From the NCBI RefSeq assembly GCF_964355755.1, contig NC_092672.1, positions 9,606,501-9,670,500 on the forward strand: 64,000 nt of DNA, written 5' to 3'. Positions 886 through 9,173 of the stretch are shown here, piece after piece (the stretch's first letter is position 1; each line of letters opens with the position of its first letter). This stretch comes from Antedon mediterranea (lineage: Eukaryota > Echinodermata > Crinoidea > Comatulida > Antedonidae). The position numbers were made by a program, and so were the translations under genes. The notes below the pieces were generated by a model, which was given only the letters and a program-made list of their open reading frames with translations, was not told the origin of the DNA and did not search any database.

Positions 886-1347
886 GAAAGAAATCACAGT
901 GGTCTGAATATTTTTATTGTAACATTATTACGGAATATCAACAGGGTACAGTTGTAGACCATTGGTATGCCAATAGGCATTATTATTTTAATAAACCATG
1001 CCATTGTTGTAAAGTACGCACAAAGGTGAGAGTTTATAGTTTAATTTAATTAAAACCAAAAAAAAAAAACTTAATACATTTTATTTATTATTATATATTT
1101 TTGTTAAATTTATATTTTTATTTATTTTATGTTGAATTGTGTGTTGTGGAATGATTGATAGTTACAATCATCATCAAAATATGAAACATTCTTATTGGTA
1201 CAAAAGTAGATCTTTACCATTAGATTGGTTGGATTTAGATCATATTTTAAACACAGGCCCTGTGATTGGTCACCTCACTTGTATTGTGCCTAAATCGTTA
1301 CGTTGCGCCCAATGGGAAAAAACACTCAATAACTTAAAATTAAATAC
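886..1347 (+). other. Two coding-like segments, possible exons of an unknown gene
   Basis: A first segment (886-1025) follows a T-rich tract ending in AG and runs open to AAG|GTGAGA, a good donor. It encodes a Trp/Cys/His/Tyr-rich stretch. A second open segment (about 1160-1347) ends at a GTAATA donor-like site and encodes a stretch with the short motifs DWLDLDHIL and PKSLRCAQW. I recognise no family. The phases of the two segments do not match directly, so they may not be consecutive exons. Most of the second segment (from 1231) is repeated at 2373-2460, where a TGG codon has become TAG, so the downstream copy looks non-functional. Confidence 0.25.
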
Positions 1348-1425
1348 GGTAATACGTAGGTTGATACTTTACATGTGAAAGTAACTTATAAATATAAATG
1401 GTAATACACCTTAGTACGTATATAA

Positions 1426-1760
1426 AGCCCGGCGCACACTAGAGCTTCCGGCTGAGCCAACTGGCACGAGTAACACTTGGCTCACTAAAAAATTTGCCGC
1501 AAATTGTGATCGCGTTCTATCAGACGCACACTAAACGCTTTTCTGATTGGATAGTTACTTAATATACGGCACGCGCTGACATAATAAATCAGAACATGTC
1601 ATGCACAGTGGAATCGGCGCACACTTGAGGAAAATGGCACGCGTGCCAACAAATATTAAACATGATAGATATTTTCCTCACGAATTCCCCGGCGCACACT
1701 GTGAGTCAAGTGTTACTCGTGCCAGTTGGCTCAGCCGAAAGCTCTAGTGTGCGCCGGGCT
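1426..1760. mobile_element. Harbinger-type MITE, copy 1
   Basis: Long terminal inverted repeats of about 70 bp start AGCCCGGCGCACACTAGAGC and end with the reverse complement. TAA is repeated at both sides (1423-1425 and 1761-1763), the 3-bp target duplication typical of PIF/Harbinger. The element is 335 bp with no coding capacity, and the motif GGCGCACACT recurs inside it. Confidence 0.85.
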
Positions 1761-2852
1761 TAAGACAATTCAGGGTATTTTCAACTATTGTAAAGGGACA
1801 GTTAGTTTTTAAGATTCAGATTCAAACTTTAAGTTGATTGAATCAAAGTGTTATCCTCCTTGACGTTGTTTATGCTACAAACATAAAATAAATCTTGATC
1901 AAAGTATACTGCCAATTTACATATTTAAAAAAATAAATAAATGTTGTTATTTTTTTTGGACAAGATCCAATGATAAAGTTAAAAAAAAAAGGCAATTATT
2001 CGATAAGTTGTATTTAGAAATCTATAGATAAGTAAATAGAACACATCTGTACTAATTATATATTGACTCAACGAATGTGTTTAGTATTGCATTTAATGTA
2101 AGGAACAATTATAATATAATATTAATAAATCATTTTATTGTCTTGTCTATATTTAGTGAGTATGATTATTAAATCAGTTACGCTGTAATGTAGATTTTGT
2201 CGGGAACAATGTTCGAGGTACGACAGTATATTACAGTATGTTCAGTGCATTCAATACACCACGCTACAAATAATGTCGCATATCTGTTTCGCAGTATAGT
2301 TGCGGGTAAAATGCGATATTTTGAAATAAGTCTCGTCATAAACAGTGTACAGATAGTGTTAACATTATCGAAGGATTTAGATCATATTTTAAACACAGGC
2401 CCTGTGATTGGTCACCTCACTTGTATTGCGCCTAAATCGTTACGTTGCGCCCAATAGGAAAAAACACTCAATAACTTAAAATTAAATACGGTAATACGTA
2501 GGTTGATACTTTACATGTGAAAGTAACTTATAAATATAATGGTAATACACCTTAGTACGTATATAAAGCCCGGCGCACACTAGAGCTTCCGGCTGAGCCA
2601 ACTGGCACGAGTAACACTTGTCTCACTAAAAAATTTGCTGCAAATTGTGATCGCGTTCTATCAGACGCACACTAAACGCCTTCAGTACGCGATTTTCTGA
2701 TTGGATAGTTACTTAATATACGGCACGCGCTGACATATTATAATAAATCAGAACATGTCATGCACAGTGGAATTTGTTAAGCCTGGTTTCCAGTCGACGT
2801 AAGAAATTAGAATTTCTTACGATTGCGTCGTTTTTACATTGGAAATTGAAAA

Positions 2853-2998
2853 TCGACAGGAAACCGGTTGAAAAAAGCTATATGTCAAAACGACGTAACG
2901 CAAGTAGAAATCGTCGTAGTACAAGTGTTTGACAGGAAACCGGTGACTGAAGCTTCCGTCTGTTACGTCGATATTCGACGGTTCGACAGGAAACCGGT
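2853..2998 (+). repeat. Subterminal repeats of the Harbinger element
   Basis: The motif GACAGGAAACCGGT occurs three times (near 2855, 2931 and 2985). It resembles the reverse complement of the TIR end (GACTGGAAACCAGG), so these may be internal transposase or partner binding sites. They are seen only near the left end. Confidence 0.7.
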
Positions 2999-3043
2999 GA
3001 ATTTCTGGATGAACATGCCTTACGATTCGATTTTATACCCTTC

Positions 3044-3094
3044 CGCTTACGCTTACGAAAGTTGACTTGAAGTCAACTTTCGTAAGCGTAAGCG
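3044..3094. repeat. Perfect 24-bp hairpin in the Harbinger left end
   Basis: Arms 3044-3067 and 3071-3094 are exact reverse complements separated by three bases. The arms carry repeated CTTACG units that also occur in the TIRs. Confidence 0.85.
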
Positions 3095-3952
3095 CAATGA
3101 TCGTAAGAACCAGCCAATCAGTGACGAGGATTATGTGACGTTGGCAAGAAGGTCAAAGCTTGGAAAGGTGATAGAAAGTAGAAAATACCGTATATATTAA
3201 GAATTGTTGACAATAAATTTGTTTTCAATTCGTGATAGAATGTAATAATTTAGGTGGATGAAATACGAAATAGATGTAAGAACTATACAAAATTGTCTTG
3301 CTTGTTACTTATTATAATTATATAAACATAGTAAAAATACGATATAATGGGTAAAAATAATACACACAGACGGACTAAATTAAAAACGTTTAAATGGCAA
3401 TAACATTTCATAAAATGTTAGAGAACAGTGTCATCATCAGGATCATCAGGATAACAATACGTTCACCTGGCATAGTTGGCGTTCAAAAGCAGGTGGGGAA
3501 AAGTTTCGTAATGATTTTGTTTTAATTGCATGATGAAGGTAGGTTGGGTAATAAATTAATAATATATATTTATTAAATTCACCGTAGTGTTTGCTTGAAT
3601 CTAAACACAATTTATAGGCATATGATAATTCATTTGATAATGAAAATAAATAATTATTAGCCTACATCATTTGAATTAGGCCTATCTATTTATAAAAAAG
3701 GAAATAAAAACCGGGTAAAAAAATCCAATAGATGAACTGTATATGTAAATAACATCGCCGGGTAAAAAAGTCCATTAGATGAACTTTATATGTAAATAAC
3801 ATCGTGGGCAAATCATAATTCAACGTTCAAAAAAAGATCATCATCATCACATCAGGAATAAAAAAAATAATTCCAAAAAAGCAGGCAAAAAGCAGGGTGG
3901 TACGCGTACGCGCGCGTTTCTGCGTCCTTTTTTGAGGACTTCATTTCACAAG

Positions 3953-6900
3953 ATGCCTTCATCTACAGAAGTCCGTGTGTTTGACGCTATTCAAGCTTAT
4001 CTTTGTCTATATGACAAAAATACCAAAGAATACAAAAGTGGAAAACGGGAAAAAAAAAATGCCTGGGAAGCTGTTTCTAAAGAGGTTAACGTCGCAGTAG
4101 AAGAGTGCCAACGAATTTATAACACTCGAAGAACAGCATTTTCCAGGTAGAGTGTAAGGCCTAGCTAGCTAGGCCTACCTAGCCTAGTAGGCCTACTACT
4201 AGTACTAAGCTAGGCCCTTATTATTATTATTATTATTATAATCATAATTATAGTTATTATAATAATAATCGTTATTATTATTATTGTAATAATAATTATA
4301 ATTATTATTACTTTTGTAGACATCTAAAGAAGGTTAGGGCTAGTATCCGTAGTGGTGCAGGCAGGGATGACATCCTCCCAATTGGCCATGAGTGGGAACA
4401 CATGAGATGGTTGATTAAACATATAAATCATAGGAAGACACTAGAGTCTGAAGAAATGTCAATTTCATTAACCGAGTCAGAAGCTTCATCTGAATGCATA
4501 CGGCTTCTTTCCGAAACTCAACAAGTGTTGGAGCTGGACTTTGACGACTCAGGTAAATAATTGTATTTATCAACCAGCACACACTAAATTTTTTATCACA
4601 CTATTTGAAAGGAGGATAAACTAATAAAAGTAATTTTACATCTCAATATCTCATTAACAACATTTAATAACATCTTCAAGTAGCAATCAAATATAAATAT
4701 TTATTAACGTTCTGCAACATCAGCAATATATTTAAATAATTTTTGCTCATGTAAAATCTATTTAGCAAAGATAGGAAAGAAATAACTATTTTATTTGGAA
4801 TGTTTGGAAATGTAAACCATAGTACTAGGACAAAAAAACAAAAAATAATTATGAATGCAAGTTATAGCAAGCATAAACTACAACATTGTTATTTTTTTCT
4901 TCAATAAACAAGATTCGTCAATATTCAAAATTACACAGACGACCATATTTGAATATAGATTAAAAAAAAGGTCATATAGATTATTTACAAAACAGGAAGA
5001 TTATTTTTAACAAATACTTATTTTAAACAATTTACTAACAACACTTTTAAGATGCCAAAGGACCGCAATTGTGTACCACATCATACTGCCAAGGAACAGC
5101 ACCTTCCTGGCTGTTAAAGTAGTCTCGAAACCTATCTCTTGTTTCTTTGGCAGTAGCCGTATAATTGTTTGACCCCACCCTTCTTATATTTTGAAGGCCA
5201 GTTTCATCATCTTGCACAACACTGCGCCATTCCCCTTCTTTAAATTCTCCATTGCTCCAGCTGTCAACAAACCCGCTGGGTATGTAGTGTGCATTATCAG
5301 TTTGCATTAGGTAATTGTGTAGGCAGATTACAGCTTTTGTAATCTGGTCAACAGTTTCAATATTTGCTCTTATAGGACGCCTAAATATGCGCCACCTTGC
5401 AGCCATTACACCAAAGGTGTTTTCGATGGTTCGGCGTCCTCTCGATGTCCTATAATTTGCCACTTCCTCTTCATCAGTCAAATTGTTGCCACCATATGGT
5501 TTTATTAACCAAGTTTTAAGAGGAAATATATCATCCCCTAATAAAACATAAGGCAATTGTTGACCACCCACAACCGATGGTGGTGGCAGCTTTAGCGTTC
5601 CAAAATCAGCTCTTTTGAAAAATGATGACGCACCAAAAATAGCGGCATCATTATCCCGCCCATATGAGCCAATGCTTGTCCATACAAATGAGTAACTGGC
5701 ATCACAAATTGCCATTAATACTGTACTATGAAAGCCTTTATAGTTATAGTACATCGAGCCGCCAAATTTGGGACACTCGATAGCAATGTGCTTACCGTCT
5801 ACTGCACCAATCGCATGAGGGACATTCCAATCACTTTCAAATTTTTCTGCAATTGCCATCCATTCACTCTCACTTGATGGTAGCCTTAGGTATTTCTTAT
5901 TTAAAGCTGTCCAAATTGAATCACAAACTTCCCGGATTATGTTAGAAACTGTTGCACGACCAACCCGAAAGTTAAATGTTTGTGATGCCATCGAGTCACC
6001 CGTTGCCAGATAACGCAAAGTTATCACAAGCCTTTCTTCTGCTGAAATTGCAGTACGACCTCTGTCTTGTCTTATCTTTAGATAGGGCTCAACCGCAGAC
6101 AGAAGATGACTAAATCTTTCCGGCGTCATCCTTAAATACCTGAAGACAATAAACAAAATTATAAATAACAAAAAATGACATTTTACATTCACATTACTAC
6201 AAAATAGTTTGTACCAACACTACATACTTTTAAGGCTTAAAAATAAAAAAGAAACATTATTTATTGTAATTTTAGGAGAAGGTACTGAGTTGCAAAATGA
6301 AACAGAAGAAGCCGACTTATTGGATAATGTCTCGGACGACTTGGAAGGGGCTTTTGCAGGATATGAAGGAAGTCTGGAAGAAGAAGGTTCAGCAGATGCT
6401 GCCCAAATAAAAGCTGATGTTACAAGAGGTAAATATTCAATCATGATAGTTAACAATATAATACAAAGTGTTATTATGCTAGAATGGGTGGGCAGGTGCA
6501 CCACTATTCCTAGGCCATCACCTATTCAAGAAATTCATGTATATCTGAAACTACACTTTAATTTGTTTTTCTTTTTAGTAGTCAAGAGGACAGTCGAAAG
6601 ACCGAACCGTAAGTATTTAAATCATTACTATATATCAATATTGGTAATTTACTATTGTACTAAAAAGTTGTGTGTTGATAATGATAAGCAGTACTATGGC
6701 GTTTCCAGACATAATGTCATGCCAAGCTGCAAAATTACCGAAGCTTTTTTGTTTTAATTTTCAGCAGTGGTTAAAAAAGCTTGGTCAAAGACGCCAAAAG
6801 GAAAATGTTCCAAAACAGAAAAGCATGTAGGTATTCTCACATAGCATATTAAAATAATCATGAATTTGCAAAAGCATACCTATTTTTTGTTGTTGAATAA

Positions 6901-7162
6901 ACAGTGCTAGAAGAGTGTGGAAAATTTGAAATTTGTTTTTAGATAGAAATGTCAAAATCTTTCATTAATTTCAATTGTTCAGGTTGAGAGTGGGGTAACA
7001 GACAGTGACCTTATAGATCTGATTAAGGGAAGCGGAGAAGAAGACGAAGCCGATACATTCGGCACGATGGTAGCAAAGAAAATGCGAAGAGTAAACGAGG
7101 AAGACAAGGAAGATATGGAACTACAAATTATGCAATTGTTCCGTGACTATTTTAAGAAGTAA
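3953..7162 (+). CDS. MADF-BESS-like accessory protein of the Harbinger element
   Basis: Six exons are proposed: 3953-4146, 4320-4552, 6276-6428, 6579-6608, 6765-6826 and 6983-7162, giving 852 nt (283 residues) with consistent phases and GT..AG introns. The ATG at 3953 is chosen because the frame upstream has only a TTG. Residues 1 to about 95 resemble a MADF DNA-binding domain (aromatic N-terminal helix, NAWEAVSKEV, then RIYNTRR and SGAGRDD). The middle is acidic. The C-terminus (from about DTFGTMVAKKMRRV to FRDYFKK) resembles a BESS motif used for protein interaction. Harbinger elements usually pair the transposase with a Myb/SANT-like protein that binds the ends and imports the transposase; here a MADF-BESS protein probably fills that role. 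Exon 4 is only 30 nt. The transposase exon 2 lies antisense inside intron 2. AATAAA at 7233-7238 is a likely poly(A) signal. Family assignment is from pattern only. Confidence 0.8.
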
Positions 7163-8045
7163 TAACAGAATTGATTTGCCAAATGTCAAAGTTAATTCAT
7201 GATTTGTGATTATGTATTCAATCTTCTATGGCAATAAATGCACTTTGTTTGGGATATTTTATTTAGACTACAATTGTTCATTGTGTACTGTATGCACTAT
7301 TTAATCAATTTAGATTTTAATTTTTCAACAAAAAAACAACAGTAGGAGTAATACATACTTCCTATCCGTTTAGTACTTCTCTAGGCTACCACTGTAGATG
7401 GGTGTACAGTAGTAGTAGTGTAGACCATGTGTGGACTGGATTCTAGTTGTAGTAACCTACCTACTTTACTAGCCTAGAATAAAGATCTGTCTAGGAGTGT
7501 CTTGATCATAGCATATAGGCCTGAATACTGTAAGCCTATATAGGCCTATCCTAACCTAGCTAGGCCTATTTTACTCACCATCGTCTTTATATAGACGCCA
7601 GCTCGGCGGCTGAAATGAACTGTGACCTTCATCTTTAGCCAGGTCCATGTATGATGTACTCTACTAACTAGGCCTAGCTAAATATAATAACTAGGCCTAG
7701 CCTAGACCAATCCATGGCCTTAAAAAATCCATATATCCTAGGCCTAGACCTAGGTAAACATTATAATTATAAATGCAAATTACAATTAAACATCTAGACT
7801 AGGCCTAGGCCTAAAAAGATAGTATAGGCCTACCTAAAAAACCATTCTCTGTCGTTTTTTATCAGTGTCTTAAATAATGTATGGTACTGCCCGAACTCTA
7901 TTCTTTCTTTTAGCACTTTCCTCTCCCAGAACTTGTGGATTCTTGGTGCTTTGTTCAACTCCTTTCTCCTCTTAATCCTTCTCGTTAATATTCTTAAATA
8001 AAGTATCTTTTTGGCCAACTCACGTCCTCTCCTACGAATAACCAT
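5047..8045 (-). CDS. Harbinger DDE transposase (HARBI1-like)
   Basis: Two exons: 8045-7834 and 6139-5047 (1305 nt, 434 residues). The donor is AG|GTAGGC and the acceptor TTCAG|GTATTT; the split codon gives Arg71. Exon 1 encodes a basic N-terminus ending FGQYHTLFKTL..EWFF, and exon 2 starts RYLRMTPERF, the usual run-in of PIF/Harbinger nucleases. The DDE_Tnp_4 catalytic residues are all visible: Asp185 in AVDGKHIAIE, Asp273 in LLGDDIFPLKTW and Glu310 in RRTIENTFGVMAARW. A helix-turn-helix-like region (TFNFRVGRATVSNII) precedes them. Length and motifs fit an intact enzyme that cuts and pastes the element at TTA/TAA sites. Its intron (7833-6140) contains exons 3-6 of the partner gene on the other strand. 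The start at 8045 is the first ATG of the open frame; an earlier non-coding exon cannot be excluded. Confidence 0.93.
7233..7238 (+). promoter_or_regulatory. Poly(A) signal of the MADF-BESS-like gene
   Basis: AATAAA lies 71 nt after the stop codon of the plus-strand Harbinger gene, in AT-rich sequence. Confidence 0.55.
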
Positions 8046-9173
8046 ATTGAAATCTCACTGCTCACTGTTTATGTTTTGGAAAATGGCCTCCTCTCTTTTC
8101 GCGAGGAATGTATGAGCCAGTGTTGTCGCAAGGAAAAAATTCAACTCGACGTAAGCGCAAGAAGGACAGACTTGCGATAAATTCAACTTTCGTAACGACG
8201 GAATCAGCACATGTAATAATCTAAATGTTTGCGGTCCAACGCGATTATGACAATTTTGTGTCGACGTTAGTTTTTGGTCTACTGATCGGAACGCAAGCGT
8301 AATCGTAAGAAAACGACGCAATCGTAAGCGGAAGCAAGTCTTACGTCGACTGGAAACCAGGCTTTAGTGAGCTATCTGCTCGCGTTCGGCGCACACTTTA
8401 GGAAAATGGCACGCGTGCCAAAAAATATTAAACACGATAGATATTTTCCTCAGAGCGGCACGCGTGGCCGATTCCTCACGAATTCCCCGGCGCACACTGT
8501 GAGTCAAGTGTTACTCGTGCCAGTTGGCTCAGCCGAAAGCTCTAGTGTGCGCCGGGCTTAAGACAATTCAGGGTATTTTCAACTATTGTAAAGGGACAGT
8601 TAGTTTTTAAGATTCAGATTCAAACTTTAATTTGATTGAATCAAAGTGTTATCCTTGACGTTGTTTATGCTACAAACATAAAATAAATCTTGATCAAAGT
8701 ATACTGCCAATTTACATATTAAAAAATAAATAAATTATGTTATTTTTTTTGACAAGATCCAATGATAAAGTTAAAACATGTCATAAAAAGGCAATTATTC
8801 TATAAGTTGTATTTAGAAATATATAGATAAGTAAATAGAACACATCTGTACTAATTATATATTGACTCAACGAATGTGTTTAGTATTGCATTTAATGTAA
8901 GGAACAACTATAATATAATATTAATAAATCATTTTATTGTCTTGTCTATATTTAGTGAGTATGATTATTAAATCAGTTACACTGTAATGTATATTTTGTC
9001 GGGAACAATGTTCGAGGTACGACAGTATATTACAGTATGTTCAGTGCATTCAATACACCACGCTACAAATAATGTCGCATATCTGTTTCGCAGTATAGTT
9101 GCGGGTAAAATGCGATATTTTGAAATAAGTCTCGTCATAAACAGTGTACAGATAGTGTTAACATTATCGAAGG

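Follow-up and report, generated by a model that had tools for sequence, protein, structure and literature searches.

A PIF/Harbinger element of the crinoid Antedon mediterranea whose transposase and MADF partner genes are predicted to interlock, a layout that recurs in related families

Introduction

The closest described systems are Harbinger elements that work with two proteins. In zebrafish Harbinger3_DR, as summarised in PMC9710019, one of the two proteins is Myb-like: it binds a subterminal motif 9 bp long, and its interaction with the transposase serves nuclear localisation. The same paper uses MADF as one name for the domain of PIF gene 2, reports its repeated co-domestication, and treats insect PIF/Harbinger elements, in which a single element encodes both a DDE transposase and a MADF gene 2 and has a 3-bp target-site duplication (TSD), together with their co-domesticated pairs. 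The two-gene layout and TSDs of 0, 2 or 3 bp have been described for Harbinger relatives (PMC9179366, PMC12730594).

The element reported here lies in a 64,000-nucleotide stretch of the A. mediterranea genome (NC_092672.1, positions 9,606,501 to 9,670,500), the whole of which is called the window. Like the insect elements, it combines a DDE transposase with a MADF protein and a 3-bp TSD, and like Harbinger3_DR it is a two-protein system. The zebrafish partner is described as Myb-like in PMC9710019, whereas the partner in the window is a MADF protein whose DNA binding is predicted. The insect genes stand side by side according to the figure legends of PMC9710019, which do not mention interlocked exons, whereas the two genes in the window interlock. 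An initial sequence-only reading of the window had suggested that a MADF-BESS partner would be a different solution from the usual Myb/SANT-like one; the MADF solution is not new, as PMC9710019 already records it for gene 2 of Harbinger elements. Full-text searches of open-licence literature found no account of Harbinger genes that interlock, are nested or lie on opposite strands. The interlock thus appears undescribed, and its novelty within that literature is provisional.

Results

The element and its insertion site

The window contains a complete PIF/Harbinger element of 5584 bp, delimited by its terminal inverted repeats (TIRs), its TSD, paralogous unoccupied sites and a full-length copy at C1:33.03 Mb. 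Its ends comprise the following features, in window coordinates.

2780..8363, complete PIF/Harbinger element
2777..2779, target-site duplication, left (TTA)
8364..8366, target-site duplication, right (TTA)
2780..2804, + strand, left TIR, 25 bp, 100% complementary to the right TIR
8339..8363, - strand, right TIR, 25 bp, 100% complementary to the left TIR
2816..2834, + strand, left arm of a 19-bp inner inverted repeat, 100% complementary to the other arm at 8310-8328 (repeat search)
2853..2997, - strand, three subterminal repeats CCGGTTTCCTGTCRA matching the TIR core, at 2853-2867, 2929-2943 and 2983-2997, candidate binding sites

The repeat search returns complementary arms of 26 bp (2779-2804 and 8339-8364), and with TTA given to the flanks the ends are 25 bp long. 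Together with the paralogous sites, it bears out the element coordinates, the 25-bp matching ends and the intact TTA duplication proposed from the sequence alone. Short TIRs, a 3-bp TWA duplication, a DDE_Tnp_4-type transposase and a second gene of DNA-binding type make this a PIF/Harbinger element.

The element inserted into an older repeat, whose 61-bp arms at 2566-2626 and 8499-8559 are 97% complementary. The unoccupied site, GTGGAATTTkTTAGTGAGCTATCTGC, with a single TTA, occurs at 32 places in the genome at three mismatches or fewer, all in paralogous copies of the repeat; one of the 32 is exact over the 26 bases, and a reversed-pattern control gave 0. These single-TTA sites in the host repeat demonstrate insertion and TTA duplication against paralogous sites. 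Tandem copies of one segment occupy window positions 1238-1910 and 2380-8690, and the Harbinger sits in the second. The first was ruled out as a clean unoccupied site: it is a deleted relative, missing 26 bp at the point of insertion as well as further short stretches. The left end of the element also holds a near-perfect 28-bp palindrome with a 1-bp loop (window 3041-3097).

The 15-bp TIR-core motif has five matches in the window, all of them in the element (both TIRs and the three subterminal repeats), against 0.03 expected. We regard GGTTTCCWGTCGA as a candidate target sequence for the MADF domain. A further motif, CGNNNTCTTACG, showed no enrichment and was dropped.

The two genes and their interlocked layout

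The exon joins of both genes are predictions from open frames, splice consensus and conservation. The exons, with what each rests on, are these.

7834..8045, - strand, transposase exon 1, basic N-terminus (spliced-frame translation, N-terminal exon search)
5047..6139, - strand, transposase exon 2, catalytic, with D185/D273/E310, inside partner intron 2 (Pfam, alignment of relatives)
3953..4146, + strand, partner exon 1, start codon and first part of MADF (spliced frame, Pfam)
4320..4552, + strand, partner exon 2, rest of MADF (spliced frame, Pfam)
6276..6428, + strand, partner exon 3, acidic region, inside the transposase intron (frame and splice consensus)
6579..6608, + strand, partner exon 4, inside the transposase intron (frame and splice consensus)
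6765..6826, + strand, partner exon 5, basic region, inside the transposase intron (frame and splice consensus)
6983..7162, + strand, partner exon 6, C-terminus and stop, inside the transposase intron (frame, dN/dS)

The predicted transposase has 434 amino acids in two exons joined across one GT-AG intron (6140-7833), and its spliced frame is open. It covers the whole DDE_Tnp_4 profile (PF13359, E 4.1e-27), and the catalytic D185, D273 and E310 are retained in 23-25 of 25 related rows. An AlphaFold2 model of the catalytic exon alone was discarded at a mean pLDDT of 39.9.

The predicted partner has 283 amino acids in six exons with five GT-AG introns, again with an open spliced frame. Pfam finds MADF in it (PF10545, E 3.1e-10, 40.7 bits against a curated cut-off of 22) and no Myb/SANT family; four relatives with both MADF halves match PF10545 at E 3e-16 to 2e-21. 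BESS (PF02944) was not detected by Pfam, and against BESS profiles made from other Harbinger partners of this genome the protein scores -2.1 and 0.6 bits, values equalled by many shuffles. The motif is present in relatives from other Harbinger families of the same genome. The proposed identification as a MADF-BESS rather than a Myb/SANT-like protein therefore stands for MADF and against Myb/SANT, and is rejected for BESS. Drosophila MADF-BESS proteins share the N-terminal position of MADF with the window partner, but they have the BESS that is undetectable in it. A PDB sequence search with the partner gave no meaningful match.

The transposase intron (6140-7833) encloses partner exons 3-6 (6276-7162), and partner intron 2 (4553-6275) encloses the catalytic transposase exon (5047-6139), in each case on the opposite strand; exons of the two genes nowhere overlap in the predicted models. 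This is the interlock as the sequence-only reading had it, with full spliced frames in both genes and GT-AG at all six introns.

Copies and recent activity

The copy at C1:33.03 Mb differs from the window element by 5 substitutions in 5532 aligned bases (0.09% diverged) and by 54 gap bases. Both its genes are intact and both proteins identical to those of the window element, so that not all other copies are old and broken, and the family moved recently. Between the window element and the C1 and C4 copies, dN/dS is uninformative for want of changes. Two copies at 95%, C4:16.83 and C4:18.63, have common flanks; they were rejected as two insertions and represent one, later duplicated segmentally. 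In both, damage to the partner gene affects the region of exon 1 and the first donor site.

The copies at C3:7.71, C5:3.99 and C8:5.34 Mb have in common a deletion of the partner start region (window 3782-3960), a deletion of 6348-7098, with which most of partner exons 3-6 are lost, and a stop codon at residue 380 of the transposase. The C6 copy (14.35 Mb) has one stop in the transposase exon and lacks the same middle segment. Such defective copies may have moved in trans, or been copied before they decayed; we favour movement in trans, since the defects are common to copies at different sites.

Most copies are flanked by TAA/TAA, TTA/TTA or TGA/TGA. A minority, which includes the C1 copy, has inverted rather than direct flanks, with a left TAA and a right TTA (L061, L062, L063, L065 and C6:14345128-14358124); these flanks could also be read as a 2-bp duplication of TA plus an extra A/T pair. 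A pattern search at up to two mismatches finds 251 TWAAGCCTGGTTTCCAGTCGACGTAAG ends genome-wide (control 0), many of them paired at about 1.4-1.5 kb with the variant end AAGGCTGGTTTCCTGTCGACGTAAG, a large non-autonomous set.

Layouts of related families and the number of changes

Families were sampled in this one genome by searches for MADF, DDE and BESS and for the N-terminal transposase exon, and relatives were compared partly via coordinates and short stretches. In the sampled two-gene Harbingers, partner and transposase lie on opposite strands, the start of the partner being turned towards the 3′ end of the transposase. Two states appear in the exon maps, simply convergent (tail-to-tail) and interlocked; the profiles behind the maps were built partly from the same sequences, and their positions are informative whereas their E-values are not. 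The convergent loci are L022, L023, L024, L025, L026, L027, L030, L032, L033, L037, L038, L039 and L040, in families that include those at C6:14.61, C5:16.13, C2:22.63, C5:13.70, C2:4.99 and C7:11.57 Mb. The interlocked families are A (the window element), B (L029/L068), C (L069), D (L031) and E (L034-L036), those other than A lying at C10:13.93/C7:0.67, C9:22.54, C3:33.46 and C7:11.29/C3:5.42/C4:12.73 Mb. Family B has its first transposase exon at C10:13933194-13933487; its transposase intron contains BESS and the second half of MADF, and its catalytic exon splits MADF; in C, D and E the BESS exon lies between the transposase exons.

In a single transposase tree of 307 columns, with some long branches, the interlocked families occupy three separate places and the convergent ones two. 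AU tests reject forcing the interlocked rows together (p 0.00035) and likewise the convergent rows (p 0.00035, the same split), as well as A with C-E (p 0.015) and B with C-E (p 0.0096). Since neither state forms one clade and the transposase introns differ in each place, the layout would have changed at least twice, appearing or disappearing more than once, to judge from this one tree.

Such counts are compatible with three gains or with two losses. An interlock ancestral to this Harbinger lineage, with convergent families derived by two losses and intron positions that drifted, would need two changes on the tree against three for repeated gain, and it suits the agreement of C, D and E in both partner-intron and transposase-intron placement and of A in partner-intron placement (after MADF). 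Against this, the transposase intron that holds the partner exons is at residue about 70 in A, about 113 in B and about 157 in C-E, and family B splits MADF itself. Moreover, exons must be relocated for either layout, so that a loss is no simpler than a gain. We therefore consider ancestry of the interlock a serious contender that falls somewhat short of being probable, and we lean towards separate gains, to which the different introns point.

Discussion

We hold with good confidence that the window contains a young, probably autonomous Harbinger with an interlocked MADF/transposase pair, from a lineage that alternates between convergent and interlocked layouts. The element itself is structurally complete, with ordinary biochemistry. 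One gene would give the 434-residue DDE transposase and the other the 283-residue MADF protein. By analogy with the Harbinger pairs treated in PMC9710019, the MADF protein most likely binds to the terminal and subterminal repeats and delivers the transposase to the ends, to the nucleus, or both. The two pre-mRNAs would be antisense to one another, and ordinary splicing would turn them into two mRNAs without overlap.

How might a lineage switch between convergent tail-to-tail and interlocked layouts, as ours seems to have done at least twice? A simple route would be a tandem duplication of the middle segment, which holds the partner 3′ exons and the transposase 3′ exon, after which one of the two copies of each gene part would be lost. 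A neutral rearrangement of convergent genes is enough to explain the interlock. The stronger proposal, that interlocked pairs arose from convergent ones in Harbingers repeatedly and independently, and were kept because the layout ties together or regulates the expression of the two proteins, seems to us unlikely. Somewhat more doubtful still is that the layout is a selected device in which antisense pre-mRNAs regulate both genes, by limiting dose or by feeding small RNAs. The opposite-strand order of the sampled pairs and the repeated changes of layout would fit such a device; convergent families, however, multiply without any interlock, and neutral rearrangement accounts for the layout as well.

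Purifying selection on partner exons 1, 2 and 6 supports their coding status: dN/dS is about 0.3 for exons 1-2 against C4:23.82 Mb, and 0.15 over 46 codons for exon 6 against the diverged relative at C4:13.71 Mb. Exons 3-5 (30-153 nt) have little independent support and are predictions from frame and splice consensus. That exons 3-6 form a small gene of their own, or are frames left open by chance, is highly improbable, for all that they match no domain and that exons 4 and 5 are very short, given intact frame and splice consensus at every partner join, the low dN/dS of exon 6 and a C-terminal BESS exon at the corresponding place in families B-E.

The sequence-only reading is thus upheld in part; it overlooked that the interlock recurs in different families, which we judge the more interesting part. 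The type of element is known, and its gene architecture is unusual and recurrent. Co-acting genes interlocked on opposite strands of a compact mobile element, in a genome that has both convergent and interlocked relatives, form a natural series suited to studying the origin of nested antisense genes and the relevance of their overlap to transposon regulation, and the pair of near-identical intact copies is a good candidate for an activity assay.
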